This document shows positions 6,905 to 54,630 of a DNA stretch of 64,000 nt, in pieces; positions within the stretch are counted from its first letter, which is position 1, and every line of letters starts with the position of its first letter. Under the pieces are notes generated by a model. That model ran no database searches. It had not been told where the DNA came from and was given only the letters and a program-made list of their open reading frames with translations. Source of the DNA: Sphingorhabdus sp. EL138 (GTDB taxonomy: Bacteria; Pseudomonadota; Alphaproteobacteria; Sphingomonadales; Sphingomonadaceae). Both the position numbers and the translations under genes were made by a program. The stretch covers positions 434,001 through 498,000 of the forward strand of contig NZ_OGVD01000003.1 of the NCBI RefSeq assembly GCF_900258045.1, written 5' to 3'.

Positions 6905-6905
6905 C

Positions 6906-12893: not shown

Positions 12894-12908
12894 TCAAATT
12901 ATCCCAAT

Positions 12909-14561: not shown

Positions 14562-14613
14562 ACTTAAAGCTCGTGACCTTCGGGCATTCGAAGCGCAGCA
14601 AGTGTAAGTATTG

Positions 14614-16413: not shown

Positions 16414-16417
16414 CTCG

Positions 16418-17443: not shown

Positions 17444-17470
17444 AAATTGATCCTTGAATCCGAAATGCTG

Positions 17471-20504: not shown

Positions 20505-20581
20505 ACTACAATTTGTATTTAGTTTTATGAATTTTGTCTATATTTTTCTAGAAATAAATCCAACTTCCTTTTTTTGGAGTT

Positions 20582-21160: not shown

Positions 21161-21220
21161 TCCTCCCTAGACAGCAGTGACAGCAACCGAGATTTGGCGC
21201 CTTGCATATTGCACTCAAGA

Positions 21221-32139: not shown

Positions 32140-32449
32140 ATCGGCCTTTCAATTGCGCCGTTTACTTGAGTTTTCTGTTTGGGTCGTACGGATGCGAATT
32201 ACAACCTTGCACAGACGTCAATGACAAACCCTGCCTGAAATTCGTTATATTATTCCTATGTCCGTTTTATCCCGAAAGCCGATATTGGACTTGCGATTTT
32301 TTGAAAGCAAACTGCCTTGTTACTTTCAACCTCTCATGCGGTTCATGTATCAGCATGCGATAAGGGTAATTATCACATGCTATTTATTGCGCGATTCTGA
32401 TGATTGGACTACCAAATCAAGCTCGATTCACAGCAAGGAACCATCGCAA
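32140..32449. other. Gene-free stretch upstream of the tyrosine recombinase
   Basis: 310 bases holding the divergent promoters of the EamA and recombinase genes. An open frame from 32258 extends the recombinase upstream but lacks family character. A motif CCCGAAAGCCGATATTGG (32271-32288) belongs to the dispersed repeat set. I see no tRNA or attachment-site core. Confidence 0.35.
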
Positions 32450-33658
32450 ATGACTGATCCGATCGATGCTACCCAGGTTCCCGAAACCACGAACAATCAT
32501 GCCATGCAGCTGATCGGTGATATTCGCTTTGCCGCACCGCCCCACACAAACATCGACTGGGATCTGCTCAACGCTTTTGTGGCCCAATGCCCAGCCAACA
32601 CACTGCGTGCCCTGCGCAATGATTTTGAAACATTTGATCTGTGGTGCCGGCGCTCTAGCCTCCCTGCCCTTCCCTCCGAACCAGCAACAATAGCTGCTTA
32701 TCTTAATCATCGAGCCGAGCAAGGTGCCAAAACAGCTTCCCTGTCCCGCTATGTCGCCTCTATTGCAAAAATTCATCGGTTGCTTGATCTTTCCGATCCC
32801 ACAAAGAATGAAACCGTGCGGCTTACCCTTTATGGCTTGCGCAGAAAAAATGGCTCAGTACAAAATCAGGCCAAAGCGCTCCGGTTCAAGGGCGATGTTA
32901 AAAATGTGCTGCGCGATAAGCCGCGTGGGATCGCGATCAAGCAGTTGCTGGAGGCATGCGGAGACAATTTGATTGGGCTGCGCAATCGCGCGCTGTTATC
33001 GGTTGCCTATGATACGGGACTGCGACGATCTGAACTGGTGGCTGTGCAACTGGACGATATTATGCCTGCCCTCGATGCCGATGCGCGGTTGCTCAATATA
33101 TCTCGAACCAAAGGCGACCAGATAGGTGAAGGCGCCACAGCCTACTTGTCGCCACGGTCCGTCAAGGCAATCGAAGCCTGGACGCAGGCAGGAGAAATCA
33201 AAACTGGGCCCCTGTTTCGACGAGTTCGCGTTTGGCACCGTAAAGCAAAGCCTGCCCATCCCGGTATCAATATGCGAGATCTTTCTGGCCGCGCAATTTG
33301 GGATCAGCGCAAACGCTATCCCAAGGCAGCCGTACCGACCCGAACCACGTATCGGGTAGGCGACGAGGCGCTGCATCCGGGATCCATCCCGCCGATATTC
33401 AAACGCGCGGTTCAGGATACATTTGATCGAGGGCTGCTGCCAGACTTTGATAAGAACAGCATCAAGGATGCGGTTGCAGCGATCAGCAGTCATTCGACGC
33501 GGGTGGGACTGACCCAGGATTTGTTTTCTGTAGGAGAAGATATTGGTGCGATTATGGATGCGCTTCGGTGGCAGTCGGAGAAGATGCCGCTTCGATACAA
33601 TCGCAAACTTGCCGCCGAAGCTGGGGCTGCGGGTAGATTGCTCGGCCAATTGCGTTAA
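32450..33658 (+). CDS. Tyrosine recombinase/phage integrase family protein
   Basis: 402 residues from ATG 32450 (MTDPIDATQ), preceded by AAGGA 9 bases upstream; the longer frame from 32258 is unlikely. The N-terminal SAM-like core-binding domain covers about residues 40-130. Catalytic residues: R in YDTGLRRSELVAV, HxxR in SSHSTRVG, and Y in MPLRYNRKLA. It marks the left edge of the defence-like region, but no tRNA or direct-repeat attachment site is visible, so whether it mobilises this segment is unknown. Confidence 0.9.
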   Translation: MTDPIDATQVPETTNNHAMQLIGDIRFAAPPHTNIDWDLLNAFVAQCPANTLRALRNDFETFDLWCRRSSLPALPSEPATIAAYLNHRAEQGAKTASLSRYVASIAKIHRLLDLSDPTKNETVRLTLYGLRRKNGSVQNQAKALRFKGDVKNVLRDKPRGIAIKQLLEACGDNLIGLRNRALLSVAYDTGLRRSELVAVQLDDIMPALDADARLLNISRTKGDQIGEGATAYLSPRSVKAIEAWTQAGEIKTGPLFRRVRVWHRKAKPAHPGINMRDLSGRAIWDQRKRYPKAAVPTRTTYRVGDEALHPGSIPPIFKRAVQDTFDRGLLPDFDKNSIKDAVAAISSHSTRVGLTQDLFSVGEDIGAIMDALRWQSEKMPLRYNRKLAAEAGAAGRLLGQLR

Positions 33659-34416: not shown

Positions 34417-35127
34417 CTATTCATCCAGCGCATAAACAGGCCCATCACCATCAATCGCCAAATCACGAATATAGTCCACTCGGTTGCCGTTCCAATGATA
34501 ACTAATATGACGGCCTTGCAACGGTATGCTCATTACATTTGGCCAAAAAGCAGCAAAGCATTCTCCGCCCGGTTGCCGCAGACTTGGGTACACAACACCA
34601 TCAACATTGGCTTTTCTAGCCTCATTTGCGAAGCTTTGAGAGGCAGTATAATCTACCGGATCCAATAGCGCTAGATAATCACCCCCGCGCAGATCTATAA
34701 GCTCCGCATCAATCGAGCCGATGAGTTCACGCTTTTGAGCGATCCATCCCGGCTCCTCGTCCGTTGCGGTCAGAAATTTAACCGTGTGGAATATGGTTTC
34801 AGCCAGCGCGGTCTCAAAGCTATTAGCGGCATAATAAGCGCCAAAATTACCATCATGAAACCGCCCAGCACTATCGGCCGAGCAATGAGTGAAAGGCGAC
34901 ATCACATAGGATGCTCCGAAGCCGCCTACATGGCGCTCAGGTGGTATGAGATCCAACTTGGCAATCGTTTCAGCCAAACGCGGATTGGTCTTGCCTTCAG
35001 CTTGAGCCAATACGGCCCAGTCAGCAGGATCTGCGATATCTTCAAACAAATCAATCGGCGGATATGCAGAGTTTATAAGACGGAATGTGCGCCGCCAATC
35101 TAATCGAGATAATGGCGGATTCACCAA
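34417..35127 (-). CDS. RES-domain NAD+-degrading toxin
   Basis: 236 residues from GTG 35127, whose GTGA overlaps the antitoxin stop; the longer frame to 35244 would run through the antitoxin. RES toxins (MbcT-like) break down NAD+. Family residues: R in RRTFRLI, E in ALAETIFHTV and S in VVYPSLRQPGGECFAAFWP. First of two RES modules in the window. Confidence 0.9.
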   Translation of the reverse strand: MVNPPLSRLDWRRTFRLINSAYPPIDLFEDIADPADWAVLAQAEGKTNPRLAETIAKLDLIPPERHVGGFGASYVMSPFTHCSADSAGRFHDGNFGAYYAANSFETALAETIFHTVKFLTATDEEPGWIAQKRELIGSIDAELIDLRGGDYLALLDPVDYTASQSFANEARKANVDGVVYPSLRQPGGECFAAFWPNVMSIPLQGRHISYHWNGNRVDYIRDLAIDGDGPVYALDE

Positions 35128-35534
35128 GGACTGCGCTGCGTATCCAAATAACGCCGGACACGCATCAGATCGGTTAATTGACCAGCGAGCATGACACCAA
35201 GCGCGGAATTCCCACCAAAAGCTGTATTGGGCTTTTTGATCCAAGCATAAACGCGCTCGTTCTCAGCAAAAAGTAACCGTAGCGCCTTATGAATACCCAT
35301 AAGATTGGAAAGCCTTGCAGCAAGATCATTACCTACATGCCCTAAGTTTCCATCCTTCCAACGCTGAAATGTGCGTACAGAAATACCTCCAAGCAAAGTG
35401 GCCGCCTCAGCATCGGTTAGCTCCCAACGATCAAATAAATTGATTGCTGCACGTTGCATCGCACGCTCTTCAGCGTCGCTAAAACCAACAATAGGGGGCG
35501 GCGCATCTTGTGCTATAACCCGAAGTTGAACCAT
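35121..35534 (-). CDS. MbcA/ParS/Xre-type antitoxin of RES module 1
   Basis: 137 residues from ATG 35534 (MVQLRVIAQD), preceded by AAGGAAGAG. N-terminal HTH-like part (WELTDAEAATLLGGISVRTFQRWKDG) and C-terminal toxin-binding domain (NTAFGGNSALGVMLAGQLTDLMRVRRYLD). It neutralises the RES toxin encoded just downstream and should repress the operon from the inverted repeat upstream. Confidence 0.92.
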   Translation of the reverse strand: MVQLRVIAQDAPPPIVGFSDAEERAMQRAAINLFDRWELTDAEAATLLGGISVRTFQRWKDGNLGHVGNDLAARLSNLMGIHKALRLLFAENERVYAWIKKPNTAFGGNSALGVMLAGQLTDLMRVRRYLDTQRSPW

Positions 35535-35543
35535 ATTCTCTTC

Positions 35544-35588
35544 CTTGACATATGGCACATATATAGAACATTTACGACAAATGTCAAG
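35544..35588 (-). promoter_or_regulatory. Inverted-repeat operator upstream of RES module 1
   Basis: CTTGACAT (35544-35551) and ATGTCAAG (35581-35588) form a perfect 8-base inverted repeat with 29 bases between, just before the antitoxin ribosome site. AT-rich core ATATATAGAAC may contain the promoter. Likely autoregulatory site for the antitoxin. Confidence 0.5.
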
Positions 35589-35641
35589 ATTATAGCGCCA
35601 TTCGGCCATTAGGCATCCCAAGTGACAATAAACCTGCCATT

Positions 35642-37066
35642 CTATGGATAGTATTCTTGCGCGTCTGGATGCCCTGCTAGTTGAACAGGTCGATAAGGCT
35701 TAATATCGCCCACTTGCGGAACGACATCAGCTTTTAGCCTTTCAATCACTGAGGCGTGCAATGTAAATCCGGGATCTACATATCTTGGGCCCGTTTTCCA
35801 TCTTTTCGAAAATGGCCCGAATTTAAAGAGAAACTCCTCCTGGTGCTGCAAACCCTTCGGATTTGGCGATCTCACTAGAAGGTTATCTTGTATCTGAACA
35901 TCGGAAAAGCAATCACGCAGCTCATCAACCATCCAATCCAATGCAATGTCGCTCAAACGCGATTCCGCTTCCAAATAACTGCCACCAATATCGCTATGAC
36001 ATCCTGGAAACCAGACTTGCTTTAGCCAAATTGGTTTTTTATCTATATTCTTATCAGCTTCTTTTTGGCTGCCCCATATCACTCGCGGGAAATCTGCTCG
36101 ATCTTCATCGATTGCCAAAGCATGTCTCGCAAATCCGACATCAGAATCAAGCCAGCCATCATAATTCTCTTTGTTCCAAACTGCGCGATGCCCGTTCTTC
36201 CAGATTTTATACCAGTGCAGCGGATTGCCAAAGCGGAGCGGCTTATCAGGATCCGGAGAATAATATTTGAACTGTGATTTTAAAACTTTCAGGTACCAAT
36301 AACCTGTAACCCCCAAAAGACCGGCAAATGGAATCGTGAACCATAGCGACCAAACCCAATATATCGCGGCGAACAGCAACGCCGCAGCTCCAAAGAATAC
36401 ACCACGAACCAGCCAAGTAATTGCCCCGTTCCCAAGTGCAGCGACTGAATCAAAGACACCGATAAAGTCTGGTTGAACATTACCCTGCACATTCCGCTCG
36501 CCTTGTGGAGGAGCAGATTTGTATTTGTCGCGGAAGCGTTTTCCCTTTTCCTCGCGCTGGCGGGAATATTCTTTATGGCCGCGCGGATAACCAGCGCCAT
36601 GATTATAGACGTAATTCACTGCATCTTCAGCAATCTTACGCAACCGTGGGCCATATTTTGGGATGGGTGAACCATCCGGCATTTCGGTAGGTACACCGCA
36701 AAGGTTCATAACATTTGCAAGCGCTCTTACGGTGTAAGCGCCTCGAGAAAAACCAAAGAGGAATATCTTATCGCCGGGTTCATAATAGGAAATAATCTGC
36801 TCATAACAATCGGTAATGTTTTTATCTATTCCTGTACCGACGGCTGCTTCTAATATGTGCCGAACACGTTTAAAAGTCATGCCCCCAACCTCGCCGGCCC
36901 CTAAGCCTGCATCATAAAAAGCCACTTGCTGCGAAGGTTTGATCGGCGAGGACGGTCCCGGACGCATTGCACGATACATCTTATATATATTGGACAGACG
37001 TTGATCCGGCTTCAATCCGCCAATTTGGCCAGTACCGTCAGAAAATATCAATATGTTTTTTGGCAT
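35642..37066 (-). CDS. DUF2235-family alpha/beta hydrolase with membrane segments
   Basis: 474 residues. N-terminal FSDGTGQ and the nucleophile elbow FGFSRGAYTVRAL define the DUF2235 (Tle1-like phospholipase) family; WFPGCHSDIGG carries the later catalytic residues. Two or three hydrophobic segments at about 215-265 (VFFGAAALLFAAIYWVWSLW, then IPFAGLLGVTGYW) suggest membrane anchoring, unlike soluble T6SS effectors. Ribosome site ACGGAG. It follows the nuclease-helicase gene on the same strand after a hairpin. A membrane-damaging effector in a defence system is a possibility, not shown. Confidence 0.85.
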   Translation of the reverse strand: MPKNILIFSDGTGQIGGLKPDQRLSNIYKMYRAMRPGPSSPIKPSQQVAFYDAGLGAGEVGGMTFKRVRHILEAAVGTGIDKNITDCYEQIISYYEPGDKIFLFGFSRGAYTVRALANVMNLCGVPTEMPDGSPIPKYGPRLRKIAEDAVNYVYNHGAGYPRGHKEYSRQREEKGKRFRDKYKSAPPQGERNVQGNVQPDFIGVFDSVAALGNGAITWLVRGVFFGAAALLFAAIYWVWSLWFTIPFAGLLGVTGYWYLKVLKSQFKYYSPDPDKPLRFGNPLHWYKIWKNGHRAVWNKENYDGWLDSDVGFARHALAIDEDRADFPRVIWGSQKEADKNIDKKPIWLKQVWFPGCHSDIGGSYLEAESRLSDIALDWMVDELRDCFSDVQIQDNLLVRSPNPKGLQHQEEFLFKFGPFSKRWKTGPRYVDPGFTLHASVIERLKADVVPQVGDIKPYRPVQLAGHPDAQEYYP

Positions 37067-37112
37067 TGGAAAACTCCGTAATTTAAGGAGATTGTTGGTG
37101 AAGTATAATTGA

Positions 37113-37129
37113 AATCCGGAACCCGGATT
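37113..37129 (-). terminator. Hairpin between nuclease-helicase and DUF2235 genes
   Basis: Perfect 7-base stem AATCCGG/CCGGATT with a 3-base loop, 17 bases after the helicase stop. On the minus strand it is followed by TTTCAATT, a weak T-tract. It may end the ubiquitin-like operon, giving DUF2235 its own promoter. Confidence 0.4.
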
Positions 37130-37145
37130 CCAGTGGCTTCATGCA

Positions 37146-40100
37146 CTAAGGCCCATTTCCGGCGTTTGATATTCTGTCCGCTTGGGCCTCGGCGAACCGC
37201 TGCGCCCAGCACAGGCCATTAACGAGTTCCATTTGAGCTATTGTATTGCAGGGTATTTCGAGCAAACGCGGATTTGCATAGATGATTGACAAACATCGAG
37301 CACGACTGATCGCGACATTGAGGCGGTTACGGCTATAAAGAAACTCAATGTTGCGAGGAAGATCCTCACCGCTTGAGGTAGCCATCGACACCAACACTAT
37401 TGCTGCCTCTTGCCCTTGGAATTTGTCAACTGTTCCTACCCTCGCTCCATCTGGCAGCGTTCGTTTCAATAGCTCCACTTGCATATTATAAGGACTGACT
37501 ACCAGAACATCTTCCGTGCCAATTTCATGCTCGGCGCCATCTTTATCGCGCCACGTTTGACCCAGCAGTCCACAATAAGTTTGGTTGACGCGGGCGGCCT
37601 CAGGTTCCGAGCGCTGTGTACATCCCTCACTATCCACATAGACAAAACGCAGTCCTGCCGCTGCAATAGCTTCAGGGTCAAGCACCGGGTCAGCCAAAAT
37701 CTGCTGCGCATCCAATCCTTCCGCTGAACTCAATCGGCGATCATAGACGGCGGCCGAAATAAAGGAGCACAGATCAGGGTGCATCCGGCGGGTTTTTGAG
37801 AGAAAAACGCCTCGATTGGCAGGAACGGTGGCGTGATCTTCCAAGAGGTGTTGAAGCGCTGACACGCCGCTGCCGCCTGGATGTGTACCTTGGATAGGCT
37901 GAGACAACTGCATCTGATCACCAACAAGTACAATGTTCTTAGCCGCGACACCCATCGCCACGATATTGGCGAGCCCCACTTGGCCTGCCTCGTCTACGAA
38001 TAGATAATCGAGGGACCTATCATGTTCTTCCCGGGCAAATAGCCAGGTGGTCCCGGCGACGAGCTGATGAGACCCTGAAACGTCTTTGTTATCCAGCGTC
38101 TCCTGAATCCATCCACCCGTGCCAAGCATCTGGTCTTCACGGCTGCTTTTTTTGATTCCTCTGAAGGAATATCCTTCTGCCGACGCTAGCGATTCAACTT
38201 CCATGATAAGTTGATTAATTGCTTTGTGGCCGTTGGAAGCAACACCAATTCGTTTGCCAGCTTTCAGCAAAGCAACAATCGCCCGCGATGCTGTATAGGT
38301 CTTGCCCGCTCCTGGTGGACCCTGAATGAGCAAATGACTGTGATCGAGCGCGAGAAGGGCATCAATCGTCGCAACAAGTGGCTCTTCTTCCGGCAACATA
38401 ATTGGGAAGCCGTGCTCTCTGCCGATGAGTGCGGGTAAATCGCGGCGCAATATCGAGACGATAGCGGAGTAATGCTCTGCTCGACCGTCTCTGACAGCTT
38501 CTGCAAACCGGTAAACAGCCTTGCGCAGCGGCTTATCGCCAATCGGCCCAGAGGGAATGAGGGACGTTCCCTCCTCAATTGTACTTCTGCTAGGTCCCAG
38601 CTTTAGTTCAATCGTCAATCCATCTTCATTAACCGAAATAACTTCGCCAGCTGGCTCCAGAGTTATCGCGCGTTTTGGGTTATCTCCTGTTTTCAGCTTG
38701 AAGTCTTGAGCTGGAAATTGAAACGCATGGATCGTCGATCGTTTGTCCGCACGCGGGCCAATATTTGGATGGGCTGTCAATCCCGCAAGACATTCTGCGT
38801 CCTCCAGCAGAGCCGTATAATCTAACTCTTGGCGCGCAAACATTGCCCACCATCCCGGTTTGCTTTCTCGGCGGTGAAATTCGAGCAGATCAACGAGCAA
38901 CTGGCGCCATGTGTCATCACCCTCTTCTCCTGCCAATAATGCATCCGACATAGCCGCAACGTTTGCTTCAATTTCGGAAATGCTTTCCGATTTACCCTTC
39001 GCCCCTGCATCACTTGCACCTTCGTACCAAGGTGTTTCGTTGCTGCGCATGCCCAGCAGCCAATCCCGACATTCTAGCGTGGATATACAGTCCTGCTCAT
39101 TGTAATCGCCGATATCTTTAAGCAATTTATCATCTTTGAGGGTGCGCCAACGTTCATACATTACGATGCTGTCCCCCGCAGTTGTAACCTCTCCGCTTCG
39201 AGCATCTTCTAGGTAAAATTTTTCCATGTTTTTGATCGAATAACCGGGTTCGGATGTTCGGATCGCTTCGCGAACGACTTGATAAAGATCCACGAGTTTA
39301 TGGCCACGCAAGAAATCGTCCACTTCGCCTTCACGCGTTCCGTGGAACATGGCGAGCCTTTTTAGGGCAGATTCTTCATAGGACGCGTAGTGATAAATAT
39401 GTGCGTCTGGATATCTAGCTAAACGGGCCGCCATAAAATCCATGGCATCCTCAAAAGCTCTTTTTTCCTCATCTCTGTCATGAGCCCAGAATTCGTGAAA
39501 AACCGCTTTGCCATCATCAACGGTTATTGTCCCGAAAAGATATTCAAGTCCTTCTTCGAAAAGTGGATCGCCTTCCATATCGAAAAACATGTCACCCTCT
39601 GAAGGCCGCGGAAGACGGGACAAACCTTTACCGGGCAGTGTTTGCAGAAGTTCATAGCTGCGCTCGCCTGTTTCGCGCTCAGCAGCCTGTAACCTTGCCT
39701 GATCACGAAGCCGTTCTAAAGTTTCATTTTGAATTCCTAATATTTCCCGAGATGTCGGAATCTCAGCGAGCATTTTTAAATCAGCAATACCGTTTTCACG
39801 TAAAATCGCAGCCTGACCGCGACCAAGACCAGCAACTAGACTAAGATGGTCTTCGGCTTCCCACTGCGCTTCACAGTTAGACGACCACCGGCAAAGCGAA
39901 CAATGATTGCACGGCGTTCCTTCAGATTGCTGGGGCGGTTCGCTTACAAATTTGACGAAGCTCTGACGCGCAAATTCAAAATAGTGGAATACTGAATCGA
40001 CGCGAACAGATGCTGTTTCATGATTTCCCAGAAAGACATGCATCTTTTCGGGTACCACAGCCTGTTCTTTACCCAGAATTTCCGAATATACACACATTTG

Positions 40101-40535
40101 GATGAGGTGTTTGGGCTTTGCTGTGCGAGATAGTTTGGTATCTGCAACTTCGTATGAATAGTCGCCTAGTGATGAAGGCCTGTCTACTTTTACAAGAAAG
40201 TCAGCATAGCCTTGCCAGTTTCCTTCAAGAAGCGCCGCTTGAAATATTACGTCAGGACCCTGTTTGAGTGCTGCCCTGGTAATCTCAGCTTTTTCTATGA
40301 TATCGACGTCACCGCTAATCTCAATGATGGATTTCCCATCTTCCTTTAGTTGATCCAAATAGGCTTGTTCGTGCTCAAGGCCTTTTTCTTGAAACAACTG
40401 CATCTGCTCATCGTCAGGAGGAAAAATGATTGGATTCTCTAGGTTCTTCAGATCCAGAAAAGTTGAGTGTGTGCAGCCAATGAAGTTAATCAAATCGCTA
40501 GCTGAAAAAAGCTTCATTCCATTAAATATTTGCAT
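37146..40535 (-). CDS. TM0106-type RecB-like nuclease fused to RNase H-like domain and SF1 helicase
   Basis: 1129 residues from ATG 40535, with a G-rich ribosome site (the TTG at 40547 is less likely). Domains in order: PD-(D/E)XK nuclease (D in GYADFLVKV, E/K in YEVADTKLSR, about residues 110-135); a four-Cys cluster CNHCSLCRWSSNC (about 209-221), perhaps Fe-S or zinc; a DEDD/RNase H-like domain (FFDMEGDP about 318, YNEQDC about 478); and an SF1 helicase (QGPPGAGKT about 738, YLFVDEAGQV, DKFQGQEAAIV, RLNVAISRA). All motifs look intact. It follows the Ubl operon on the same strand after an 86-base gap. Confidence 0.9.
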   Translation of the reverse strand: MQIFNGMKLFSASDLINFIGCTHSTFLDLKNLENPIIFPPDDEQMQLFQEKGLEHEQAYLDQLKEDGKSIIEISGDVDIIEKAEITRAALKQGPDVIFQAALLEGNWQGYADFLVKVDRPSSLGDYSYEVADTKLSRTAKPKHLIQMCVYSEILGKEQAVVPEKMHVFLGNHETASVRVDSVFHYFEFARQSFVKFVSEPPQQSEGTPCNHCSLCRWSSNCEAQWEAEDHLSLVAGLGRGQAAILRENGIADLKMLAEIPTSREILGIQNETLERLRDQARLQAAERETGERSYELLQTLPGKGLSRLPRPSEGDMFFDMEGDPLFEEGLEYLFGTITVDDGKAVFHEFWAHDRDEEKRAFEDAMDFMAARLARYPDAHIYHYASYEESALKRLAMFHGTREGEVDDFLRGHKLVDLYQVVREAIRTSEPGYSIKNMEKFYLEDARSGEVTTAGDSIVMYERWRTLKDDKLLKDIGDYNEQDCISTLECRDWLLGMRSNETPWYEGASDAGAKGKSESISEIEANVAAMSDALLAGEEGDDTWRQLLVDLLEFHRRESKPGWWAMFARQELDYTALLEDAECLAGLTAHPNIGPRADKRSTIHAFQFPAQDFKLKTGDNPKRAITLEPAGEVISVNEDGLTIELKLGPSRSTIEEGTSLIPSGPIGDKPLRKAVYRFAEAVRDGRAEHYSAIVSILRRDLPALIGREHGFPIMLPEEEPLVATIDALLALDHSHLLIQGPPGAGKTYTASRAIVALLKAGKRIGVASNGHKAINQLIMEVESLASAEGYSFRGIKKSSREDQMLGTGGWIQETLDNKDVSGSHQLVAGTTWLFAREEHDRSLDYLFVDEAGQVGLANIVAMGVAAKNIVLVGDQMQLSQPIQGTHPGGSGVSALQHLLEDHATVPANRGVFLSKTRRMHPDLCSFISAAVYDRRLSSAEGLDAQQILADPVLDPEAIAAAGLRFVYVDSEGCTQRSEPEAARVNQTYCGLLGQTWRDKDGAEHEIGTEDVLVVSPYNMQVELLKRTLPDGARVGTVDKFQGQEAAIVLVSMATSSGEDLPRNIEFLYSRNRLNVAISRARCLSIIYANPRLLEIPCNTIAQMELVNGLCWAQRFAEAQADRISNAGNGP

Positions 40536-40621
40536 AATACCCCCCAATAACTGACTATATTCTTTACTTAAATTTCAGCCTGCGACGAGCAATATGACAC
40601 TAAAGTACACCCATATTGGTT

Positions 40622-41086
40622 TTATTTTTTATCGAATCGCCCTGTAATCCAGTGCTTTAGCTTGCTCAACCAAGCCCAGCCTGCTGGTTTCTTTCCATTA
40701 TGAGAAACTGCAGATGGGGTTGAAGCACCAAGTGGTGACAGTTTTGGATAGTAGTTATCTTTACGCAATCTATCACGGCGACGGCCGCCCTCAATTTGCT
40801 CATCTGACCAATCCTCAGCCCAGTGAACTTGATTTTCATGAATGAAATAATGCGACCGGCAGCTCAAACTCCAACTGCCCACAGACGGTGATATAGAGAT
40901 GGTCTCGCCGTCGAATGTAAAACGCCAATCAATAGGCGAGATTGGCAAAGCAACTTCATTACCGCATCCACACGCACACAAATGTATCATCGTGCGATGC
41001 TCCCCTGAAATAAACAATATTCCGCCTTCAAGGTCTTCAGGTATGTTCAGAACAAATTTTGGAATCAATTGAGCAATGTTGTTCAT
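40622..41086 (-). CDS. DUF6527 metal-binding protein of the ubiquitin-like operon
   Basis: 154 residues. Conserved core: HLCACGCGNEVALPISP (C37, C39, C41), DGETISISPSVGSWS and CRSHYFI (C76, H79), which I read as the DUF6527 family, probably one zinc site. The ATG overlaps the E1 stop (ATGA). The basic, low-complexity C-terminal 50 residues are variable. Function unknown; the family is found with multiubiquitin/E1 operons. Confidence 0.82.
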   Translation of the reverse strand: MNNIAQLIPKFVLNIPEDLEGGILFISGEHRTMIHLCACGCGNEVALPISPIDWRFTFDGETISISPSVGSWSLSCRSHYFIHENQVHWAEDWSDEQIEGGRRRDRLRKDNYYPKLSPLGASTPSAVSHNGKKPAGWAWLSKLKHWITGRFDKK

Positions 41087-42279
41087 GCAGCCTCTCCAAT
41101 GAAATCCTCATTGAGAAGATGATTGCCATCGATAGTAAAAAGCGAAAAATGTTCACTCTCCAAATCCTTATAGAAGCCACGAAATCGCTTCCAACGGACA
41201 ATGGCCAATGCCGCATTCATCATGTTCAAATCAGCAACCTGAATGTTGCGAGCATACACATTGTCCAACCCGTTACTATCGAACGGGATGCGGTCTTTCA
41301 AATGCACTTGCTCCCTCATGCTTGGAGTGCTGGTGGTGACCCTTAGTTGCCCAACCAGAGATCCGTCTGTCATATGGAGCCCCATTCCTACATCAATAAA
41401 TGGTAAATTTAGGCGCTCAAGTTCAGCAACAATGGCCGCTTTCTCCAAACCAGAATCTAAGCAAAGAAACACAAATGTTGCGTCAGCCAAAAGGTGGAAG
41501 CTATCAGGCAACATCCGGACCGAATGTGGAATGATTTGCCGGTGCATGTTGGAGTAGATACCCGCGAGATAATCTACCTTTTTGGGACGTTCTCGCAATG
41601 CGCCGAGCGAAGCGCCTCCGGGTGCACGAAAAGCATTATGCTGAAGAAAATCATCGCCATCAATGATATCGATCCTTTCAGCGGGCGTCTTGGCAGCTTG
41701 ATCCAGAACATACGAACCAGTGCCTCCAACACCGATAATAACTAGACGTTCTCCTGCCAGCTTTTCTGCTAATTCGCCGATCCCGGCGCGGGATGATCCG
41801 GTATCTAGGTAAACAAAAGGGGATTTGATATCTTCATCGGCAACCACTCGGCGCACCCTTGCTGTGACATCAGGAACAATGACAGCAGCTTCATTGGCAA
41901 TAATTGAGCAATAAGTGGACATTTTTTCGTAATAATCCATATAATAGCCAACCTTGGGTTTGCTCGAGAAACTGTGAGTGATCACCAACTTCCCACCCAA
42001 AGACTGCGTTGAGCTGGAATTGATAATTTTATGAAGTGGCTCTCCTTTGGAATTGCATGGAAGCTCTCCAGTAAACATTGCAACATGTGTATCAGGTCGT
42101 TGAGTTTGATCAGCCGACAAAGTCAGAGTTGATACAAGATCGGCTCGCTTGATTGCCTTGCGTTGGGTCACGTATGGGACGTTCCGAACCACAATATGTC
42201 CTGATATGATATCCAATTCATATCCATCTTCTTGCAGGCGAAGGAGATCCGAATTATGATTTATCAGTTGCTGTGACAT
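41083..42279 (-). CDS. E1-like ThiF adenylyltransferase with N-terminal DUF6791 domain
   Basis: 398 residues from ATG 42279 (MSQQLINHNS). N-terminal DUF6791-like part: FTGELPCNSKGEPLHKI, HSFSSKPKVGYYMDYYEK, FVYLDTGSSRAGI (residues 1-168). ThiF/E1 part: ATP site IIGVGGTGSYVLDQAAKTP, IDIIDGDDFLQHNAFRAPGG, FVFLCLDSG, and the C-terminal IDGNHLLNED. Cysteines are C75, C124 and C273; C75 in the DUF6791 part is a candidate transthiolation residue. It adenylates a Ubl C-terminus, presumably that of the overlapping upstream gene. No separate E2, E3 or JAB peptidase gene is present. Confidence 0.9.
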   Translation of the reverse strand: MSQQLINHNSDLLRLQEDGYELDIISGHIVVRNVPYVTQRKAIKRADLVSTLTLSADQTQRPDTHVAMFTGELPCNSKGEPLHKIINSSSTQSLGGKLVITHSFSSKPKVGYYMDYYEKMSTYCSIIANEAAVIVPDVTARVRRVVADEDIKSPFVYLDTGSSRAGIGELAEKLAGERLVIIGVGGTGSYVLDQAAKTPAERIDIIDGDDFLQHNAFRAPGGASLGALRERPKKVDYLAGIYSNMHRQIIPHSVRMLPDSFHLLADATFVFLCLDSGLEKAAIVAELERLNLPFIDVGMGLHMTDGSLVGQLRVTTSTPSMREQVHLKDRIPFDSNGLDNVYARNIQVADLNMMNAALAIVRWKRFRGFYKDLESEHFSLFTIDGNHLLNEDFIGEAA

Positions 42280-42916
42280 TGAAAACCATCCCCTCAACAA
42301 CACGAACTGTCTCGCCCTTGACTAAAGAGCCCTCTGGGCGCTTGGGCGGTCCTTTACGAAAACTAACTGTCAGGCAAATCTGAGCACCTACAGGTGGCAC
42401 TTCAAAAGCCAATGCAATCAACTCTTCAAAACTGATCTTGCCCTTTTTGACTTCACGTTCCCGAGCATTCACAATAATCTTGATGGTTTTCGGCTCTGAT
42501 TTGCGGGATCGGATATGTTCGACACCACCACCTTCAAGCTTAACCGAACCATTCTCAGCAATTGGGAGATCCTGATCGGAGTCCAAGTAGAGCTCGTGGT
42601 CATCCGAAATCCCAGCAATTTGCCGGATATCATCTGCTGAAATCTCATCCGCACCCCATTCCCAACCCCGTTCGTTCACAGTGAAAGTGTGGATATCATC
42701 GGTTTCAAATGATCGAAAAACAGGTATCTGGCCTGACTCAAATTTTATCTCGTTTTCCAAGCCAACCGACTGGGCAATGCCCTCATCAATACGCACCATT
42801 GCATGATGGCTCGCCGGAACCAGCCCTGCTTCGACACGGATTTGGCGGCCGTCAACTAGCTTATCATCAATGGAATAAACTGAACCATTAAGTTCAAATT
42901 TGCGAGACTTGGACAT
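42254..42916 (-). CDS. Multiubiquitin: three tandem ubiquitin-like domains
   Basis: 220 residues from ATG 42916 (MSKSRKFELNG), ribosome site GCAGGAG. Three about 70-residue beta-grasp units: residues 5-72, 76-136 (FTVNERGWEWGADEISADDI, then IAGISDDHELYLD and GGGVEHI) and 143-220 (TIKIIVNAREREVKKGKISF, ALAFEVPPVG, GMVFNVTATDKS). This matches the bacterial multiubiquitin family. The C-terminus ends ATDKS with no Gly-Gly, so any conjugation would need processing or a different chemistry. It overlaps the E1 gene by 26 bases. First gene of the minus-strand operon. Confidence 0.9.
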   Translation of the reverse strand: MSKSRKFELNGSVYSIDDKLVDGRQIRVEAGLVPASHHAMVRIDEGIAQSVGLENEIKFESGQIPVFRSFETDDIHTFTVNERGWEWGADEISADDIRQIAGISDDHELYLDSDQDLPIAENGSVKLEGGGVEHIRSRKSEPKTIKIIVNAREREVKKGKISFEELIALAFEVPPVGAQICLTVSFRKGPPKRPEGSLVKGETVRVVEGMVFNVTATDKS

Positions 42917-43072
42917 AATTACACTCCTGCGGCCGTAACGGACCGTTCGCTTAAGACTCTTGCGGATGATTCGATCTTGGACTACAGCCACATATGAGTC
43001 TTGATATGGACTATCTATATCGAGACTACTATGGAAATCAAGTCCAAATATGGACAAATGGGAGATTTATTT
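42917..43072. promoter_or_regulatory. Divergent control region with palindromic operator GTCCA-AATA-TGGAC
   Basis: Lies between the Ubl operon (leftward) and RES module 2 (rightward). A 14-base palindrome, GTCCA/TGGAC around AATA, is at 43042-43055, and extra TGGAC half-sites lie at 42978-42982 and 43007-43011. Spacing of about 30-44 bases suggests repeated antitoxin binding. Because the region is shared, the antitoxin could also control the Ubl operon (inference). Confidence 0.5.
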
Positions 43073-43462
43073 ATGGCCATAACAACCGTCGCCCAAATGG
43101 GCGGGGGGGAAATTGCGATTCCCGTAAGCTTGGCTGCGTTCACACCATTGGCAGAAGCTTGGGATTTATCTTCAGATGAGCAAATAAAACTTTTGGGATC
43201 GCCACCCCGCTCGACGTTCTTCAAATGGAAGAAGGAGGGTACTGAGGTGCCTAGGGATACTGGCGAGCGCATTTCCCATCTATTGGCGATATGGAAAGCT
43301 CTCGAAATTCTTTTCACTGACCCGGTGCGCTCGCAAGAATGGCTGAAAAGAAAGAATGAATTTTTCGGTGGCCTTTCGGCTCTGGACATTATGCTTGAAA
43401 GAGGCGATTTTTCAGACATCGTAAAAGTGAGGCAGTATCTCGATGCACAGCGAGGGGGCTAA
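43073..43462 (+). CDS. MbcA/ParS/Xre-type antitoxin of RES module 2
   Basis: 129 residues from ATG 43073, chosen because GGGAG lies 8 bases upstream; the frame is open to 43001. HTH-like region DEQIKLLGSPPRSTFFKWKK and C-terminal toxin-binding domain (FFGGLSALDIMLERGDFSDIVKVRQYLD). Divergent from module 1's antitoxin in sequence. It overlaps the toxin start by 20 bases. Confidence 0.88.
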   Translation: MAITTVAQMGGGEIAIPVSLAAFTPLAEAWDLSSDEQIKLLGSPPRSTFFKWKKEGTEVPRDTGERISHLLAIWKALEILFTDPVRSQEWLKRKNEFFGGLSALDIMLERGDFSDIVKVRQYLDAQRGG

Positions 43463-44159
43463 TTTACCGGTTATCGAGATCGACAGCCAATACCACAACT
43501 TGATCCCGTCTCGGTTTCCGCCAGTGCCTGTGTATGAGCGGATCGCCAACGGGAATGATGCGTATTTCGCAGCGGTCGAGGAGCTTACGAATCCTCGCGT
43601 TCGTGAGAAACAACGATTAACCAAAGGCATAGCCGCAGTTGATGAGCAATCTCCAAGATTGCAAAGCTGGAATCACGCACCATTCGCATACCCTAACCCC
43701 GAAGGTAGTAAATTTTACGGACGTGACCGAAACGTCGTCGAACTAGCGGCAGATCTTCAAACAGCGCTTGCTGTATCTGTAATCAGGCGAGAGAACTTTC
43801 TCAAGCGCACATCGGAACCTGCCACTGCAATAGAAATTAGACAGCTGACGCGCAAAGTGACTGGATCATTTATTGATGCAAGAAACTGGAAGGGAATTTC
43901 AGATCGAGAGCGGAGATTAAATCTTGGAGAAGAAGCCGTGAGCCGGTCCTTGGATGGTATCATCTTCCATCCTCATGAGCGCCCTTCCGCAAACAGCGTT
44001 GTTGTTTTGAAGCCCGATTGCTTGGGGAGGCCCAATCAGGCAGAGCACTTTAAATTTCTTTGGAACGGCAACTGCATAACGGTGCTATATGCATTTGGAG
44101 CTGACAAGACTTATGATCCGACTGATCTACAGCTACCAAATGACATTCTCGCGGCATGA
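43443..44159 (+). CDS. RES-domain toxin of module 2
   Basis: 238 residues. RES features: IPSRFPPVPVYERIA near the start, a central ALAVSVIRRENFL where other RES toxins have an ALAET motif, and LDGIIFHPHERPSANSVVVL with the Ser. The first Arg and the E position differ from module 1, so this is a distant RES subfamily. Probably an NAD+-degrading toxin neutralised by the overlapping upstream gene. Confidence 0.82.
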   Translation: MHSEGANLPVIEIDSQYHNLIPSRFPPVPVYERIANGNDAYFAAVEELTNPRVREKQRLTKGIAAVDEQSPRLQSWNHAPFAYPNPEGSKFYGRDRNVVELAADLQTALAVSVIRRENFLKRTSEPATAIEIRQLTRKVTGSFIDARNWKGISDRERRLNLGEEAVSRSLDGIIFHPHERPSANSVVVLKPDCLGRPNQAEHFKFLWNGNCITVLYAFGADKTYDPTDLQLPNDILAA

Positions 44160-47300: not shown

Positions 47301-48194
47301 CTAGCTGGTTTTGCGCAATGCCGTGATTGACTGAAACTCTGACAATATGTCTGGATTATGCTCAGCTAGATATCGGACGATATTTGCACTTTCGAGGAGA
47401 CGCCCGACATATCCAACCGCTAGAACGAGGTTCAAATGGTCTGCCGCATATGATTTTTCAATTGATCTGAAATCCCGATCAAGATTCTCAGATTCCTTCT
47501 CCATCAACGCTATTTGCTCCCCGCTCAACCCCTTGGTTTGCTTCGGCTTATTGCTGACAAGCTGGTCTTGCGGCGTAGCTGCAACCAACGAGCGTGCATA
47601 AGGGAGAGAATATGTGTTCATCGCGATCATGAGCTGAGCGGCCTCAATTTGCCGCATCGGTTTTAGCTTTTTCAGTTCTTTAAAGCTATTATGTGGTACG
47701 TGTTTATCGCGCAAAAGTTCTGAAACTTCTTTGCAGATACCAACCAATAGATTCCGCTTGGCTCTAATGGCGCGAATATTAACATTCAGCGCGCGGGCCA
47801 AACGTTCTTCCGGTACGCCTTTCTTTACCGCTCTCAAGATCATTTTATGTTCCTGGACGAGGGCTAGGCGGTTTACCCGTTTGTTATATGTGAAAGCTTC
47901 ATCTTCAGTCGCAATCAGACAAACAATATCTTTTGCACCTATATCCTTCATAACAGCCAACCGGATATGGCCATCCAAAAGATGGAAAGTGCCAGGATCC
48001 TCTTTATCTCTGTACACGACCGGCGGCTCAATCATACCAATCTCGCGAATTGATGCCGCAATTTGAGCAAACTTCTTCGACGCTCTGATACCGTCACCGA
48101 CTTCGCGCAGCGGAAAAATATCGGCAACAGGAATGCGGAGTGTGGATTCTTCAAACACCTGATCAATGCAGGAAGGCGTGTCCTTTTTGGTCAT
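47301..48194 (-). CDS. ParB/RepB-type protein, second of a pair
   Basis: 297 residues from ATG 48194 (MTKKDTPS). ParB N-terminal nuclease-like domain (RIPVADIFPLREVGDG, LLDGHIRLAVMKDIG), HTH region (GVPEERLARALNVNIRAIRAK) and a RepB-type C-terminal part. Start overlaps the previous stop (ATGA). Forms an operon recombinase-ParB-ParB without a ParA, so it is probably recombinational or regulatory rather than a partition system. Confidence 0.85.
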   Translation of the reverse strand: MTKKDTPSCIDQVFEESTLRIPVADIFPLREVGDGIRASKKFAQIAASIREIGMIEPPVVYRDKEDPGTFHLLDGHIRLAVMKDIGAKDIVCLIATEDEAFTYNKRVNRLALVQEHKMILRAVKKGVPEERLARALNVNIRAIRAKRNLLVGICKEVSELLRDKHVPHNSFKELKKLKPMRQIEAAQLMIAMNTYSLPYARSLVAATPQDQLVSNKPKQTKGLSGEQIALMEKESENLDRDFRSIEKSYAADHLNLVLAVGYVGRLLESANIVRYLAEHNPDILSEFQSITALRKTS

Positions 48195-49087
48195 TTCAGA
48201 TAACTCTCTTCCTCTTGCAGCGACAGCGCTATGCATTCAGGTATAGAATTCAGATCTTCTCTCTCCACAAGACTGAAAAATTTTTCATCGGCGACGAGTT
48301 TGCGAAGCGCTTCGGTTATAAAAATCAGATGATTCTTGGTTGTCTCGGCCCTTTGGATCATATCCTTTTTTCGTTCCGCATCCTCTTGGTATGCTTTTAC
48401 CAGTGCATCAGCTGTCATCTTTTTATTGGGAACTGCCTTGGGATATTCGCTACCTTTGCCCCGCTGCCGACGCACCTCTACTAATCGTTTGGCGGCCAAG
48501 AGTTTCTTACCTTTTAAGGTTCCATCTTCGTAAGCTTTGGCTAGCGCTGCCTGTATGTCTTTATCAGCGGCTTCCGCTATTTCGGTGGCTACCGAAATTG
48601 GAATAACGCCACTTTCCACCGACTTTAACAGTCTGTGCTCGCCCCTTTCGATCAAACGGGTGACTCCCTTAACATAGTCAACCGTCAGACCTGTTTTTAA
48701 GGCTACCTGCTCTTCCGTAAAGCCGCGCTTGTTCATACCGATAATATCTTGAAGGAGATCTAAAGTGCCGTGATTACGTCTGGCGCAATTTTCGACTAGA
48801 CTTGCGATAAGGCAATCTTCTTTGTCCGCCGTAATCACCAATGCCGGTACTGTTTTATGACCCAGGATTTGGCAAGCCTCCAATCGACCCTGGCCGCAGA
48901 CTAAATCATAGATAGGGTCAATCTCTCGGATACGCATCGACACGGTTATTGGCCGCTTCAAACCGATTTTTTTGATATTACTAACTATTTCATTGAAAAT
49001 CTGCGGATTACGATGACGTGGATTTAGGATGTTTATCTTATCTATCGGGATTAACTCTACGCGCTGGGCGGGTTTTGTACTGGTCAT
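48191..49087 (-). CDS. ParB-like protein, first of a pair
   Basis: 298 residues. ParB domain: INILNPRHRNPQIFNEIV and DLVCGQGRLEACQILGHKTV with LVENCARRNHGTLDLLQD, then HTH GFTEEQVALKTGLTVDYVKG. A charged C-terminal helical part follows. ATG overlaps the recombinase stop. Paired with the next ParB gene; the two are only distantly alike. Confidence 0.87.
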   Translation of the reverse strand: MTSTKPAQRVELIPIDKINILNPRHRNPQIFNEIVSNIKKIGLKRPITVSMRIREIDPIYDLVCGQGRLEACQILGHKTVPALVITADKEDCLIASLVENCARRNHGTLDLLQDIIGMNKRGFTEEQVALKTGLTVDYVKGVTRLIERGEHRLLKSVESGVIPISVATEIAEAADKDIQAALAKAYEDGTLKGKKLLAAKRLVEVRRQRGKGSEYPKAVPNKKMTADALVKAYQEDAERKKDMIQRAETTKNHLIFITEALRKLVADEKFFSLVEREDLNSIPECIALSLQEEESYLK

Positions 49088-50658
49088 GCTGCGTACCTCA
49101 GATTGCCGCGTTTCGCTAAAGCGAAAAGGCCACTCAAAGAATTCGTTCGATACGCATCGAACGAGAGACCGTTATATTCAGCAAGTCGCAATACTGCCTG
49201 ACGCATATCCAAGCGCGGTAGTAAATAGTAATCCTTTACCGCGTCATTGCCCGTGTTCATTCTGACCGCCACCGTAATGTCGGGCGACAGACATGTGTCA
49301 AATTTCAACTTCCAACGAGAGGAGCCCGCCTTTGTCGATAGGCAACGCATCATGCATATCGATATCGAAAACTCTTGGTTCACTGTGAGTAGATCGGTTT
49401 CCTCATCTCGATCAACTGTGCCTCCAGCTTGTTCCAAACCATATATGATGTCGCCGACGATTGGAGAGTGCAAAAGCCTCAGTTTTTTATTTATTTCCAA
49501 GTATGAATAGTCATGATCTGGCTGAAACCCAATAAGAGTATATGCCCGTAAAAGCCCGCCAAATCTGCTTCTAAATGCTACGCTAGAGGGGCAATCGTCC
49601 ACTTCGTCTATAATAAGGCCAGACAATATACCTTTGCGATCAAGCACTGATTTTAGGCTAGCGAGCATTTCTTCATCGCTCAGTTTTGCCGATCGCGAAA
49701 CGATGATAGCCTGGGCTTTTTCATATACTGACTTATCTACTATCGCGCGAAATGCGTTATCTGACCTGACCCAATCATTTGGCGCGTTTTCAATGAGCTT
49801 ACCCTTAAGCTTGCATGATGTTTTACCCCAAACATTATTACCGATATATTTTTCGTTTATCAGAATTTGATGGACGGTACCCCGCGTCCATTCTGATCCA
49901 CGATCCGTTGATATGCCCTGTAGATTGAGCCAACTAGCGATATCCCGCTCAGACAAATTATCTTCCACGAAACGCCTGTAGATCTCGCGGACCAGTTCGA
50001 TTTCCTTTGTGGGTCCGGGAACCAATATCACCCGATCTGTGGTGATACTCTTGTGTTCACCTAGCCTAAGTTCATTTTTCTGATTTCCTTCTTGATCCAC
50101 TAGCATTCGTCTTAGACCAAAGCCTGCTGGGCCACCTTGACGGTAACCAAGCCGGATCAAATGCGATTGACCCTTGAAGACTTTTACAGATAGCTCACGG
50201 CTATACTCGCCGGCCATTGCGCGCTTCACGGTCTTGATTATCGAAGACCCTATGCTTCCATCATTTTCAAATTGTTCCGCGCAGTAATGAACAGCCACAC
50301 CGGCACGGCGGCATCGCAGTTCGTATGAAGCCGCTTCATCAACATCCTGAAAACGTCCCCAGCGACTTACATCATATACAATCAGCGCCTTATATTCTGC
50401 CTGTCCTGTCTCAACATCACTCAATAGCTGTTGAAGCGCTTTACGGCCGCCAATATTGAGGCCGCTTTTCCCCTCATCCGCATAGCGCTCGATTATTCTA
50501 TACCCACGACGTTCAGCGTATCGATGAATTTCTTCAGATTGATTATCGGCAGAATACTTCTGGTGCTCCGTTGACATGCGAACATATTCAGCTGCTGGAA
50601 TTTTGTCGGAGTTGGAATCCTCGTCATCGCCATCCGGCTGACTCCAATCAATAACCAT
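49084..50658 (-). CDS. Large serine recombinase
   Basis: 524 residues. Resolvase domain: AAEYVRMSTEHQKYSADNQ with the catalytic Ser, DEGKSGLNIGGR, LIVYDVSRWGRF. Recombinase domain: NLQGISTDRGSEWTRGTVHQ with ILINEKYIG. The Cys-rich zinc ribbon usual in large serine recombinases is not obvious. Operon with two ParB genes. It likely defines a nested mobile unit inside the island; attachment sites not identified. Confidence 0.92.
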   Translation of the reverse strand: MVIDWSQPDGDDEDSNSDKIPAAEYVRMSTEHQKYSADNQSEEIHRYAERRGYRIIERYADEGKSGLNIGGRKALQQLLSDVETGQAEYKALIVYDVSRWGRFQDVDEAASYELRCRRAGVAVHYCAEQFENDGSIGSSIIKTVKRAMAGEYSRELSVKVFKGQSHLIRLGYRQGGPAGFGLRRMLVDQEGNQKNELRLGEHKSITTDRVILVPGPTKEIELVREIYRRFVEDNLSERDIASWLNLQGISTDRGSEWTRGTVHQILINEKYIGNNVWGKTSCKLKGKLIENAPNDWVRSDNAFRAIVDKSVYEKAQAIIVSRSAKLSDEEMLASLKSVLDRKGILSGLIIDEVDDCPSSVAFRSRFGGLLRAYTLIGFQPDHDYSYLEINKKLRLLHSPIVGDIIYGLEQAGGTVDRDEETDLLTVNQEFSISICMMRCLSTKAGSSRWKLKFDTCLSPDITVAVRMNTGNDAVKDYYLLPRLDMRQAVLRLAEYNGLSFDAYRTNSLSGLFALAKRGNLRYAA

Positions 50659-53544: not shown

Positions 53545-53598
53545 TGAGACTCAGTCTCATTCGAACGGACGCAATCTCAACAACTGAGATTTTTTACA
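53545..53598. mobile_element. Right end of the Tn7-like island, with two palindromes
   Basis: Palindrome TGAGAC-TCA-GTCTCA at 53545-53559, then ATCTCA-ACAAC-TGAGAT at 53574-53590 followed by a T-run and ACA. Read from comM outward, the end starts TGTAAAAAATCTCAG, fitting the TG...CA ends of Mu/Tn7-type elements. ACCGC at 53598-53602 matches the target duplication reported for AbaR islands in comM; the exact base of the junction is ambiguous by one. Confidence 0.55.
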
Positions 53599-54440
53599 CC
53601 GCCACCAACCAGAGCCGCCATCGAAGCAGAATGATGGGGATTTCGATAGGGTCGGGTCCGGCTCATCTGGCCGCCCTCCAAAGTACCCGCCACACTGGCC
53701 ACCATCGAAACTTCAAGGGCTTCGGCGGGTGACAAGGGCGGCAAGATGCCAGGCAAGCAGGACGCAAGTAAGGATTTACCCGAGCCTGGCGGACCGTTCA
53801 TCAACAAATTATGTCCGCCCGCGGCCGCAATTTCTAGCGCGCGTTTGGCGGTTTCCTGACCCTTTACGTCTTTCAGATCCGGTCCTTGATCTGGCTCCGG
53901 TACGGTTCCAGCTTCGGGCGGTGTGAGCACCGACTGGCCTTTGAAATGATTGAGCAAAGCGAGCAGATCTTTCGGTGCCAATATTTCGACGTCGCCAGCC
54001 CAGGCCGCCTCCGCCCCCTGCAATGCGGTACATATCAGTCCCAAATTCTCGCTTGATGCATGTAAGGCTGCGAGCAGAACACCGGGCGTGGCTGCCAGCC
54101 GCCCGTCCAGAGACAATTCCCCCACCACCACATAACTGGCCAAAGTCTCTGCATCTATAATGCCCATCGCACCAAGCAAAGCCAGAGCAATGGGCAGATC
54201 ATAATGCGAACCCTCCTTGGGCAAATCCGCAGGTGACAGATTAATCGTGATCCGTTTAGGCGGCAGTGACAAACCCAGCGCCGCTATCGCTGCCCGCACC
54301 CGCTCCCGGCTTTCGGCCACGGCTTTGTCAGGCAGTCCGACGATATTGAAAGCCGGCACGCCCGGGGCAACCTGGCACTGGACCTCGACCCCGCGTGCTT
54401 CCAGGCCCAAATAGGCGACAGTGGAAACCAGTGCTACCAT
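53577..54440 (-). pseudogene. comM: comM (yifB), truncated by insertion
   Basis: 5' half of the Mg-chelatase-like AAA+ protein that acts as a branch-migration helicase in natural transformation. From ATG 54440 it is normal: VALVSTVAYLGLEARGVEVQ, GLPDKAVAESRERV, NLSPADLPKEGSHYDLP, Walker A NGPPGSGKSLLA and RNPHHSASMAALVGGG. It then runs into foreign sequence and stops nine codons later. Usual length is about 500 residues; here about 287, lacking the sensor and C-terminal parts. Any remaining competence function should be lost unless the island excises. Confidence 0.9.
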
Positions 54441-54630
54441 ATAATGCCTTATTGCCCTGTTACTGGCGCAACTGTGGCAAGGCGTATCCAAAGAGTCGAG
54501 CAATACCAGAGGCTTGGCCGGAACCGTCAACAATCCCGACCCACACCTATTTCTGCGTCAGCTGCTGGTTAATCATACGCAAACCAATCGCTTCCACTGT
54601 TTATCAAGCGCCTTTGGACAAAAGCGGCCA

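Follow-up and report, generated by a model that had tools for sequence, protein, structure and literature searches.

The window, by which we mean the whole 64,000-nucleotide stretch of Sphingorhabdus sp. EL138 analysed here (C2:434001-498000 of a 3.66-Mb genome), carries four minus-strand genes with open frames between positions 37146 and 42916, encoding a repeat-containing ubiquitin-like (Ubl) protein, an E1-like enzyme with an N-terminal DUF6791 domain, a Cys/His-rich DUF6527 protein and a nuclease-helicase. We suggest, with our confidence balanced evenly for and against, that these genes represent a mobile DUF6791-branch polyUbl or Bub-like Ubl-conjugation operon accompanied by an accessory nuclease-helicase. 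The three-gene operon type is already known: in the portions of PMC1779556 used here, type 6e polyUbl operons combine a Ubl protein of 1–3 repeats, a Cys/His protein and an E1 bearing a JAB or, in a subset, some other N-terminal domain. Judging by domain content, the first three genes of the window's operon are the "domain X" form of this type, with which they share a repeat Ubl, an E1 with an N-terminal non-JAB domain, a Cys/His metal-binding protein and a mobile, patchy occurrence. What is added here is a predicted fused E2-E1 and a repeatedly joined accessory nuclease-helicase; the same portions of PMC1779556 mention no helicase. An earlier, sequence-only reading of the window knew of no established function for the four genes as a set, which needs amending in that the three-gene set had been described in 2006 (PMC1779556) and the four genes are, from their recurrence elsewhere, not a fixed system: the helicase link is recurrent, not obligate. 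The gene identities given in that reading (Ubl, DUF6791-E1, Cys-rich DUF6527 and RecB-like nuclease/RNase H/SF1 helicase) are borne out by Pfam and NCBIfam matches, and chance or misannotation as the source of the four genes is ruled out by the domain matches together with recurrence at other loci.

The E1-like adenylyltransferase (398 residues; 41083-42279; this and all following positions are on the minus strand unless stated otherwise) is probably an E2-E1 fusion, because its DUF6791 part, modelled alone, finds its best match in the Bub-pathway E2 protein BubB. This domain (residues 10-160; 41800-42252; Pfam 5.4e-51) was modelled from 5 sequences, with a predicted local distance difference test score of 83.9. 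When the Foldseek candidates were put through a second structural comparison, BubB ranked top (Z 9.3 over 120 residues, root-mean-square deviation 3.6, 10% identity), followed by 49 matches with Z from 5.7 to 4.5, nearly all of them E2 or ubiquitin E2 variant proteins; the N-terminal part of Cap2 aligned with Z 5.3. We consider an E2-like (UBC) fold of the modelled domain quite likely. Residues at positions 65 and 75, as well as Ubl ends, were counted in 48 sequences, the position alignment being made without loci L180, L224 and L225; His65 is invariant, and no Cys column is fully conserved among the 48. E2 enzymes carry an HPN...Cys motif. The H-x9-C spacing of His65 and Cys75 would fit it, but the model places His65 where a strand begins and not every sequence has Cys75, and we do not claim the motif. 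There is no separate E2 gene between the Ubl and helicase genes, and Prok-E2_E gave no match in the window's own genome, in a search that was also silent on control genomes. The sequence-only reading was correct about the lack of a JAB among the four genes, the N-terminal part of the E1 being DUF6791, while its remark that a separate E2 is lacking overlooks the predicted E2-like fold of DUF6791 itself. In the portions of PMC1779556 used here, domain X was thought analogous to JAB, a proposal of 2006 that is disfavoured by the E2-like fold match.

The remainder of the protein contains a ThiF/E1 domain match (residues 171-297; 41389-41769) with the GxGGTG motif, Asp207, Asp209, Arg218, Lys234 and Asp275. 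Pfam ThiF scores 26.7 bits, just below its cut-off of 28.1, and NCBIfam NF004805 (PRK06153 family) matches above cut-off at 6.2e-144. The closest solved relative of the E1 domain is Citrobacter BubCD (profile 1.4e-9, fold Z 21.1). Profile matches to Protein Data Bank (PDB) chains fall almost only in the ThiF part; the one exception, a match to cystathionine beta-lyase (E 0.17), was not credible. Bil and the Cap2/Cap3 proteins of cyclic-oligonucleotide-based antiphage signalling systems (CBASS) are known cases of bacterial Ubl proteins, or of conjugation with E1/E2; compared with them, the window has neither JAB nor cyclase among its four genes and does have DUF6527. With the Bub pathway (BubA, BubB and BubCD; PDB 9ea4, 9ea5, 9ea8, 9eae and 9eav) the window shares E1 domain kinship and the BubB-closest predicted DUF6791 fold; in Bub, however, the E2 is a separate protein (BubB) and the E1 is fused to a JAB deubiquitinase, whereas here a predicted E2 is fused to the E1 and the set contains no JAB or other deubiquitinase.

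The Ubl protein (multiubiquitin, 220 residues; 42254-42916) matches Pfam Multi_ubiq (PF14452, 5.5e-26) in two stretches above cut-off, and aligns end to end, including the TDKS end, with the solved 222-residue multi-ubiquitin protein 9cd2 (ZDHYS365; 2.3e-25), a comparison that covers the Ubl only. The three-domain Ubl proposed from sequence is plausible because of this end-to-end match, although Pfam sees only two repeats. The Bil Ubl (8u38) matches at 3.5e-4, and BubA only weakly against the profile of the window's Ubl (E 0.53). The C-terminus, TDKS, has no Gly, and a non-Gly end is also found where the Ubl and E1 genes do not overlap (L077 and L080).

The third protein, DUF6527 (154 residues; 40622-41086; PF20137, 3e-23), is a probable Zn protein containing CxCxC and CxxH; C37, C39 and H79 are invariant in 16 sequences, and C41 and C76 nearly so. 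C37-x3-C41 together with C76-x2-H79 corresponds to the type 6e metal-binding signature, given in the portions of PMC1779556 used here as C-x(3)-C-x(35-38)-H-x(2)-C, with the last pair slightly different in order and spacing. Its profile matched no PDB chain. DUF6527 was also seen at 22 viral-contig loci of IMG/VR (L231-L252), and it may also exist independently of Ubl operons, since 19 of these 22 were without a detected E1 in the sequence examined.

Of the genes described as tightly overlapping, Ubl and E1 do overlap, by 26 nucleotides (ATGTCACAGCAACTGATAAATCATAA holds the start of the E1 gene together with the end of Ubl), as do E1 and DUF6527, by 4, but the helicase gene stands apart. Its likely ATG, at 40535, lies 86 nucleotides past the DUF6527 stop and is preceded by a GGGGGG run resembling a ribosome-binding site; the gap itself (40536-40621) is free of called promoter-like or terminator-like sites. 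A terminator-like hairpin of 10 pairs (37110-37132) directly follows the helicase stop, though counts of promoter-like and terminator-like sites in the region are close to those of shuffled sequence (8 terminator-like sites, against a shuffle mean of 7.0).

Including the window's own genome each time, DUF6791 occurs in 7 of 385 genomes of the class, 28 of 396 of the order and 8 of 398 of the phylum, and a tblastn search for the E1 found it in 116 of 72,556 plasmid records. IMG/VR yielded six contigs with the E1, two of them fragments, and a scan of genome contigs with the single E1 sequence gave no match. For comparison we used 44 loci, namely 40 genome loci (every DUF6791 place of the class, order and phylum scans except the window) and 4 of the 116 plasmid records; as these were selected by DUF6791, the E1 is present by construction, near-copies (L078/L079, L065/L067) were kept and some contigs are short. 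Ubl accompanies DUF6791 at all 44 and DUF6527 at 38. From these scans, the distribution of the DUF6791 operon is patchy and mobile.

The nuclease-helicase (1129 residues; 37146-40535) joins a TM0106-family RecB-like nuclease, RNase_H_2 and a superfamily 1 (SF1; UPF1/IGHMBP2-like) helicase with AAA_11/AAA_12 matches, parts which it has in common with the TM0106 RecB-like nuclease-helicases of TIGR03491 (316.3 bits against a curated cut-off of 97.45). Its closest solved relatives are SMUBP-2, UPF1 and DNA2. In several searches the protein was started 1-2 residues late (37146-40532 or 37146-40529). Helicases of this kind (E 1e-60) are found in 31 of the 396 order genomes, two same-family genomes having helicases identical to records from Sphingobium faniae and Qipengyuania xiapuensis, and at three of the 44 other DUF6791 loci. 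In the window and L059 the gene follows the operon directly in the same orientation, in L065 it lies downstream and convergent, and in L071 upstream on the same strand. Leaving out the window's genome and without correction for kinship, helicase and DUF6791 occur together in 6 order genomes against 2.05 expected (Fisher p 0.011) and are adjacent in 3 of these 6 (G585, G589 and G721), which has a P of 4e-6 under random placement and of 0.023 if both are confined to 5% of the genome.

Further to that, helicases of 59-72% identity adjoin DUF6527 downstream (L059) or a protease that follows DUF6527 (L118 and L139). The latter two, the closest helicase relative (L118, 72%) and one from a Phenylobacterium plasmid (L139, 59%), stand at the end of operons of the order Ubl - Prok-E2_E - JAB/ThiF - DUF6527 - SDH-type protease, whose E2 matches BubB and whose E1 matches BubCD, and these E2/JAB operons with the same helicase are truer Bub relatives than the window. 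The JAB part scores 16.4 bits against a Pfam cut-off of 25, and an HTHP...SxxD motif was recognised by eye. Plasmids L259-L261 have Ubl, E1 and the SDH-type protease, L260 and L261 also an annotated E2 and DUF6527, and the annotation shows no helicase within 7 kb in any of the three; therefore the helicase is, as far as gene order tells, an add-on to Ubl operons. The SDH-type (ClpP-like) serine protease gene following the Bub-type operons of L118, L139 and L259-L261 hints that proteolysis is tied to the Ubl pathway there.

Neighbourhoods were viewed for 24 of the 31 helicase-bearing order genomes (window, L059, L065, L071 and 20 more) and for 3 of 67 plasmid records, and a Ubl operon adjoins the helicase in 5 of the 24 and 1 of the 3. 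In a helicase tree of 106 rows (104 distinct sequences; L207, L226 and L227 were dropped as short), the Ubl label needs five changes, all forced by strong branches, and only 4 of 500 shuffles were as low; because of this the helicase appears to have joined Ubl operons repeatedly. The window's helicase clade has 14 rows, of which 5 adjoin Ubl genes and the other nine have a divergent WYL gene (L138, L141, L142, L143 and L185), a RES gene (L144, L145 and L206) or neither of these (L119). The same-strand downstream helicases of the window, L059, L118 and L139 lack a WYL gene within 1.5 kb, as would be expected if they were expressed from the Ubl operon. TM0106 helicases of ~43-47% identity (L120-L125, L128, L168, L171, L176, L179 and others) often have McrB and McrC as neighbours, some with a WYL gene and some not, and form a McrBC-linked branch.

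A second kind of nuclease-helicase accompanies the operon elsewhere. At 9 of the 44 loci (L046, L047, L049, L054-L056, L058, L082 and L083) a ~1130-residue Peptidase_M78-UvrD-PDDEXK fusion is encoded right ahead of Ubl and in the same orientation, in one case with an insertion sequence between; its domains were read in L046 only, the other loci being assigned by clustering, and the L046 protein scores best against the RTasHel and GajB models. A weakly sigma-70-region-4-like gene precedes it in 9/9, with a further gene of no family between them in 8/9. The resulting cassette consists of the sigma-70-like gene, the extra gene (not recognised in L082), M78-UvrD-PDDEXK, polyUbl, DUF6791-E1 and DUF6527 (not seen in L055, at a contig end), and in L046 and L047 it is close to Tn7-like transposition genes. 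Taken together with the three TM0106 cases, an SF1 helicase-nuclease is found beside the DUF6791 operon at 12 of 44 loci, a figure for which there is no matched count from other defence operons. That two different nuclease-helicases recur beside the operon is, to us, the strongest hint of a link between the Ubl system and nucleic-acid processing.

Several observations weigh against a conjugation operon with an E2-like domain and a linked helicase. Foldseek alone gave the DUF6791 model a best E of only 0.42, albeit with E2s as the top three; models without a clear match typically reach a best Z of 7-8 with the comparison tool, and this model was built from 5 sequences; hhalign of DUF6791 against Prok-E2_E gave a probability of 2.4%, against 1.3% for a control. 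Position 75 is Cys in 32 sequences, His in 10, Tyr in 5 and Ser in 1, and the Ubl C-terminal residue is Ser in 45/48, Ala in 3/48 and Gly in 0/48. PADLOC matched neither Ubl nor DUF6527, and tblastn found the E1 in 0 of 50,697 phage records. As to the helicase, the co-occurrence that the sequence-only reading had proposed as a check is above chance and spans two kinds of Ubl operon, yet this helicase was not found at 41 of the 44 other DUF6791 loci in the sequence examined, and 99 of 106 helicase rows have no Ubl genes nearby. L119, 67% identical to the window's helicase, has neither Ubl nor WYL. Among the best 80 of 562 helicase relatives in genome contigs, several of them at short loci and records close to the window's genome possibly left out, a Ubl operon lies close to one (L180, where it is divergent), and L218 has an E1-like gene for which no Ubl was found.

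An alternative that we find somewhat doubtful is that the helicase needs no partner for its defence role and is a chance neighbour of the Ubl operon, brought together with it in a mobile island rich in defence genes but acting separately. Of the tree rows, 27 are McrBC-adjacent, 44 have WYL within 1.5 kb and only 7 (the window included) are Ubl-adjacent, with 37 carrying no label; 61 have WYL and/or McrBC, two of these also having Ubl genes. The convergent L065 helicase has its own WYL gene, as do those of L071 and L180. Such independence is harder to reconcile with the window, L059, L118 and L139, where the helicase lies directly downstream of two types of Ubl operon on the same strand with no WYL of its own, or with the above-chance co-occurrence with DUF6791, although clustering in defence islands weakens the latter test, as the P of 0.023 indicates. 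We also rather doubt that the Ubl operon serves in general stress, such as DNA damage, or stabilises its mobile element and is not antiphage. Several points speak for this: in the sections of PMC13373217 used here, CapW or CapH+CapP, which respond to single-stranded DNA, are present in 219 of 544 Bub operons, Bub operons are often under DNA-damage regulators, and protection against phage is not demonstrated; 70% of the multiubiquitin proteins examined adjoin toxin-antitoxin loci, according to the part of PMC4963859 consulted, and the window has RES/Xre pairs on both sides; addiction or protection against invasive replicons was proposed in 2006 (PMC1779556, same portions). The partner genes, however, are of defence type, comprising a McrBC-associated helicase family and a UvrD helicase-nuclease that scores against RTasHel/GajB. 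Finally, Ubl and E1 might work in the manner of ThiS/ThiF or MccB, in sulfur transfer or peptide modification, with no protein conjugation. The best ThiF (Z 20.3) and MccB (Z 19.1) folds come close to BubCD as matches of the E1 domain, DUF6791 lacks a universal catalytic Cys and the Ubl lacks a Gly end; given the E2-like N-terminal domain, BubCD as the closest E1 relative and no biosynthetic gene among the four, we regard this as very unlikely.

Returning to a Ubl-conjugation operon with an accessory nuclease-helicase, we suggest that the Ubl module repeatedly recruits nuclease-helicases, probably for a phage or DNA-damage response; for the window itself, Ubl conjugation, an effector role of the helicase and phage defence are inferred. 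The E1 would adenylate the Ubl C-terminus, a conserved Ser and not Gly, and pass the activated Ubl to the fused E2-like domain, perhaps via residue 75, with DUF6527 aiding target choice. Removal of Ubl would be absent or left to other proteins, given that the set has no JAB. The helicase, probably made from the Ubl operon and without the WYL regulator of many stand-alone relatives, would cut or unwind nucleic acid that is foreign or damaged; the Ubl may tag either the helicase itself, as a switch or for recruitment, or a target that the helicase processes. We think it unlikely, though worth stating, that the tag switches the nuclease-helicase directly, polyUbl being joined by the fused E2-E1 to the helicase or to DNA-bound phage or repair proteins, with its C-terminal Ser and the variable position-75 nucleophile as the means, with TM0106 and M78-UvrD-PDDEXK effectors recruited independently.

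If DUF6791 is a fused E2, an uncharacterised Pfam domain gains a predicted role and an apparently E2-less system gains its full complement of E1, E2 and Ubl; a Ubl that ends in Ser and the absence of a universal Cys suggest a chemistry unlike the classical thioester relay. Two kinds of nuclease-helicase beside two versions of the conjugation machinery point to nucleic-acid processing as the controlled process, and a Ubl-switched nuclease-helicase, if true, would be a bacterial counterpart of ubiquitin-controlled DNA processing. Our literature searches found no paper on DUF6791 or DUF6527, no reported target for the polyUbl operons of 2006 and nothing linking TM0106 helicases with Ubl operons, TM0106 itself being unmentioned there.

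The toxin-antitoxin and mobile setting proposed for the operon is confirmed by RES/Xre pairs on both sides and by a ~54-kb insertion that splits comM, whose C-terminal part lies left of the window (C2:432749-433093) and whose N-terminal part lies at window positions 53577-54533; no clear terminal repeats or target duplication were found for this insertion. Divergent to the Ubl gene is an Xre/ParS-type antitoxin (43001-43462, plus strand; PF09722 and PF20432) with its RES-domain toxin partner (43443-44159, plus strand; PF08808), and on the downstream side are a second Xre antitoxin (35121-35621; PF20432 and PF09722) and a second RES toxin (34417-35244; PF08808, 4.7e-33), the two RES proteins being 26% identical. 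The pairs bracket the operon and a gene for a Tle1-like lipase-fold protein (35642-37066; PF09994, 1.4e-63), located between the helicase and the second pair, which we left outside the system. Counting the window, a divergent M78-like peptidase gene lies upstream of Ubl at 16 of 45 loci and a RES gene at 5 of 45; for 6 of the 16 the M78 assignment comes from a cluster with a representative that scores below the Pfam cut-off. From its position, the divergent RES/Xre pair, in place of the M78-peptidase/helix-turn-helix pair of many relatives, may regulate the window's operon. On plasmids L259-L261 the divergent gene is Fic, while L139 has Fic upstream on the same strand and a divergent CopG-like gene.

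Elsewhere on the island, TniA/TniB/TniQ-like genes mark the left end of the insertion (90-3501), and there are a phage-integrase-family gene (32258-33658), RepB/ParB-like genes (47301-49087) and a serine-recombinase-like gene (49084-50658) with NCBIfam matches below cut-off. PADLOC gave no match for seven other island genes. A biosynthetic-looking cluster at 6413-23061 encodes ketoacyl synthases, a FabA-like dehydratase and a phosphopantetheinyl transferase, together with an AMP-binding/PP-binding protein, a PALP enzyme, an HpaB-like hydroxylase and an acyl-CoA thioesterase.

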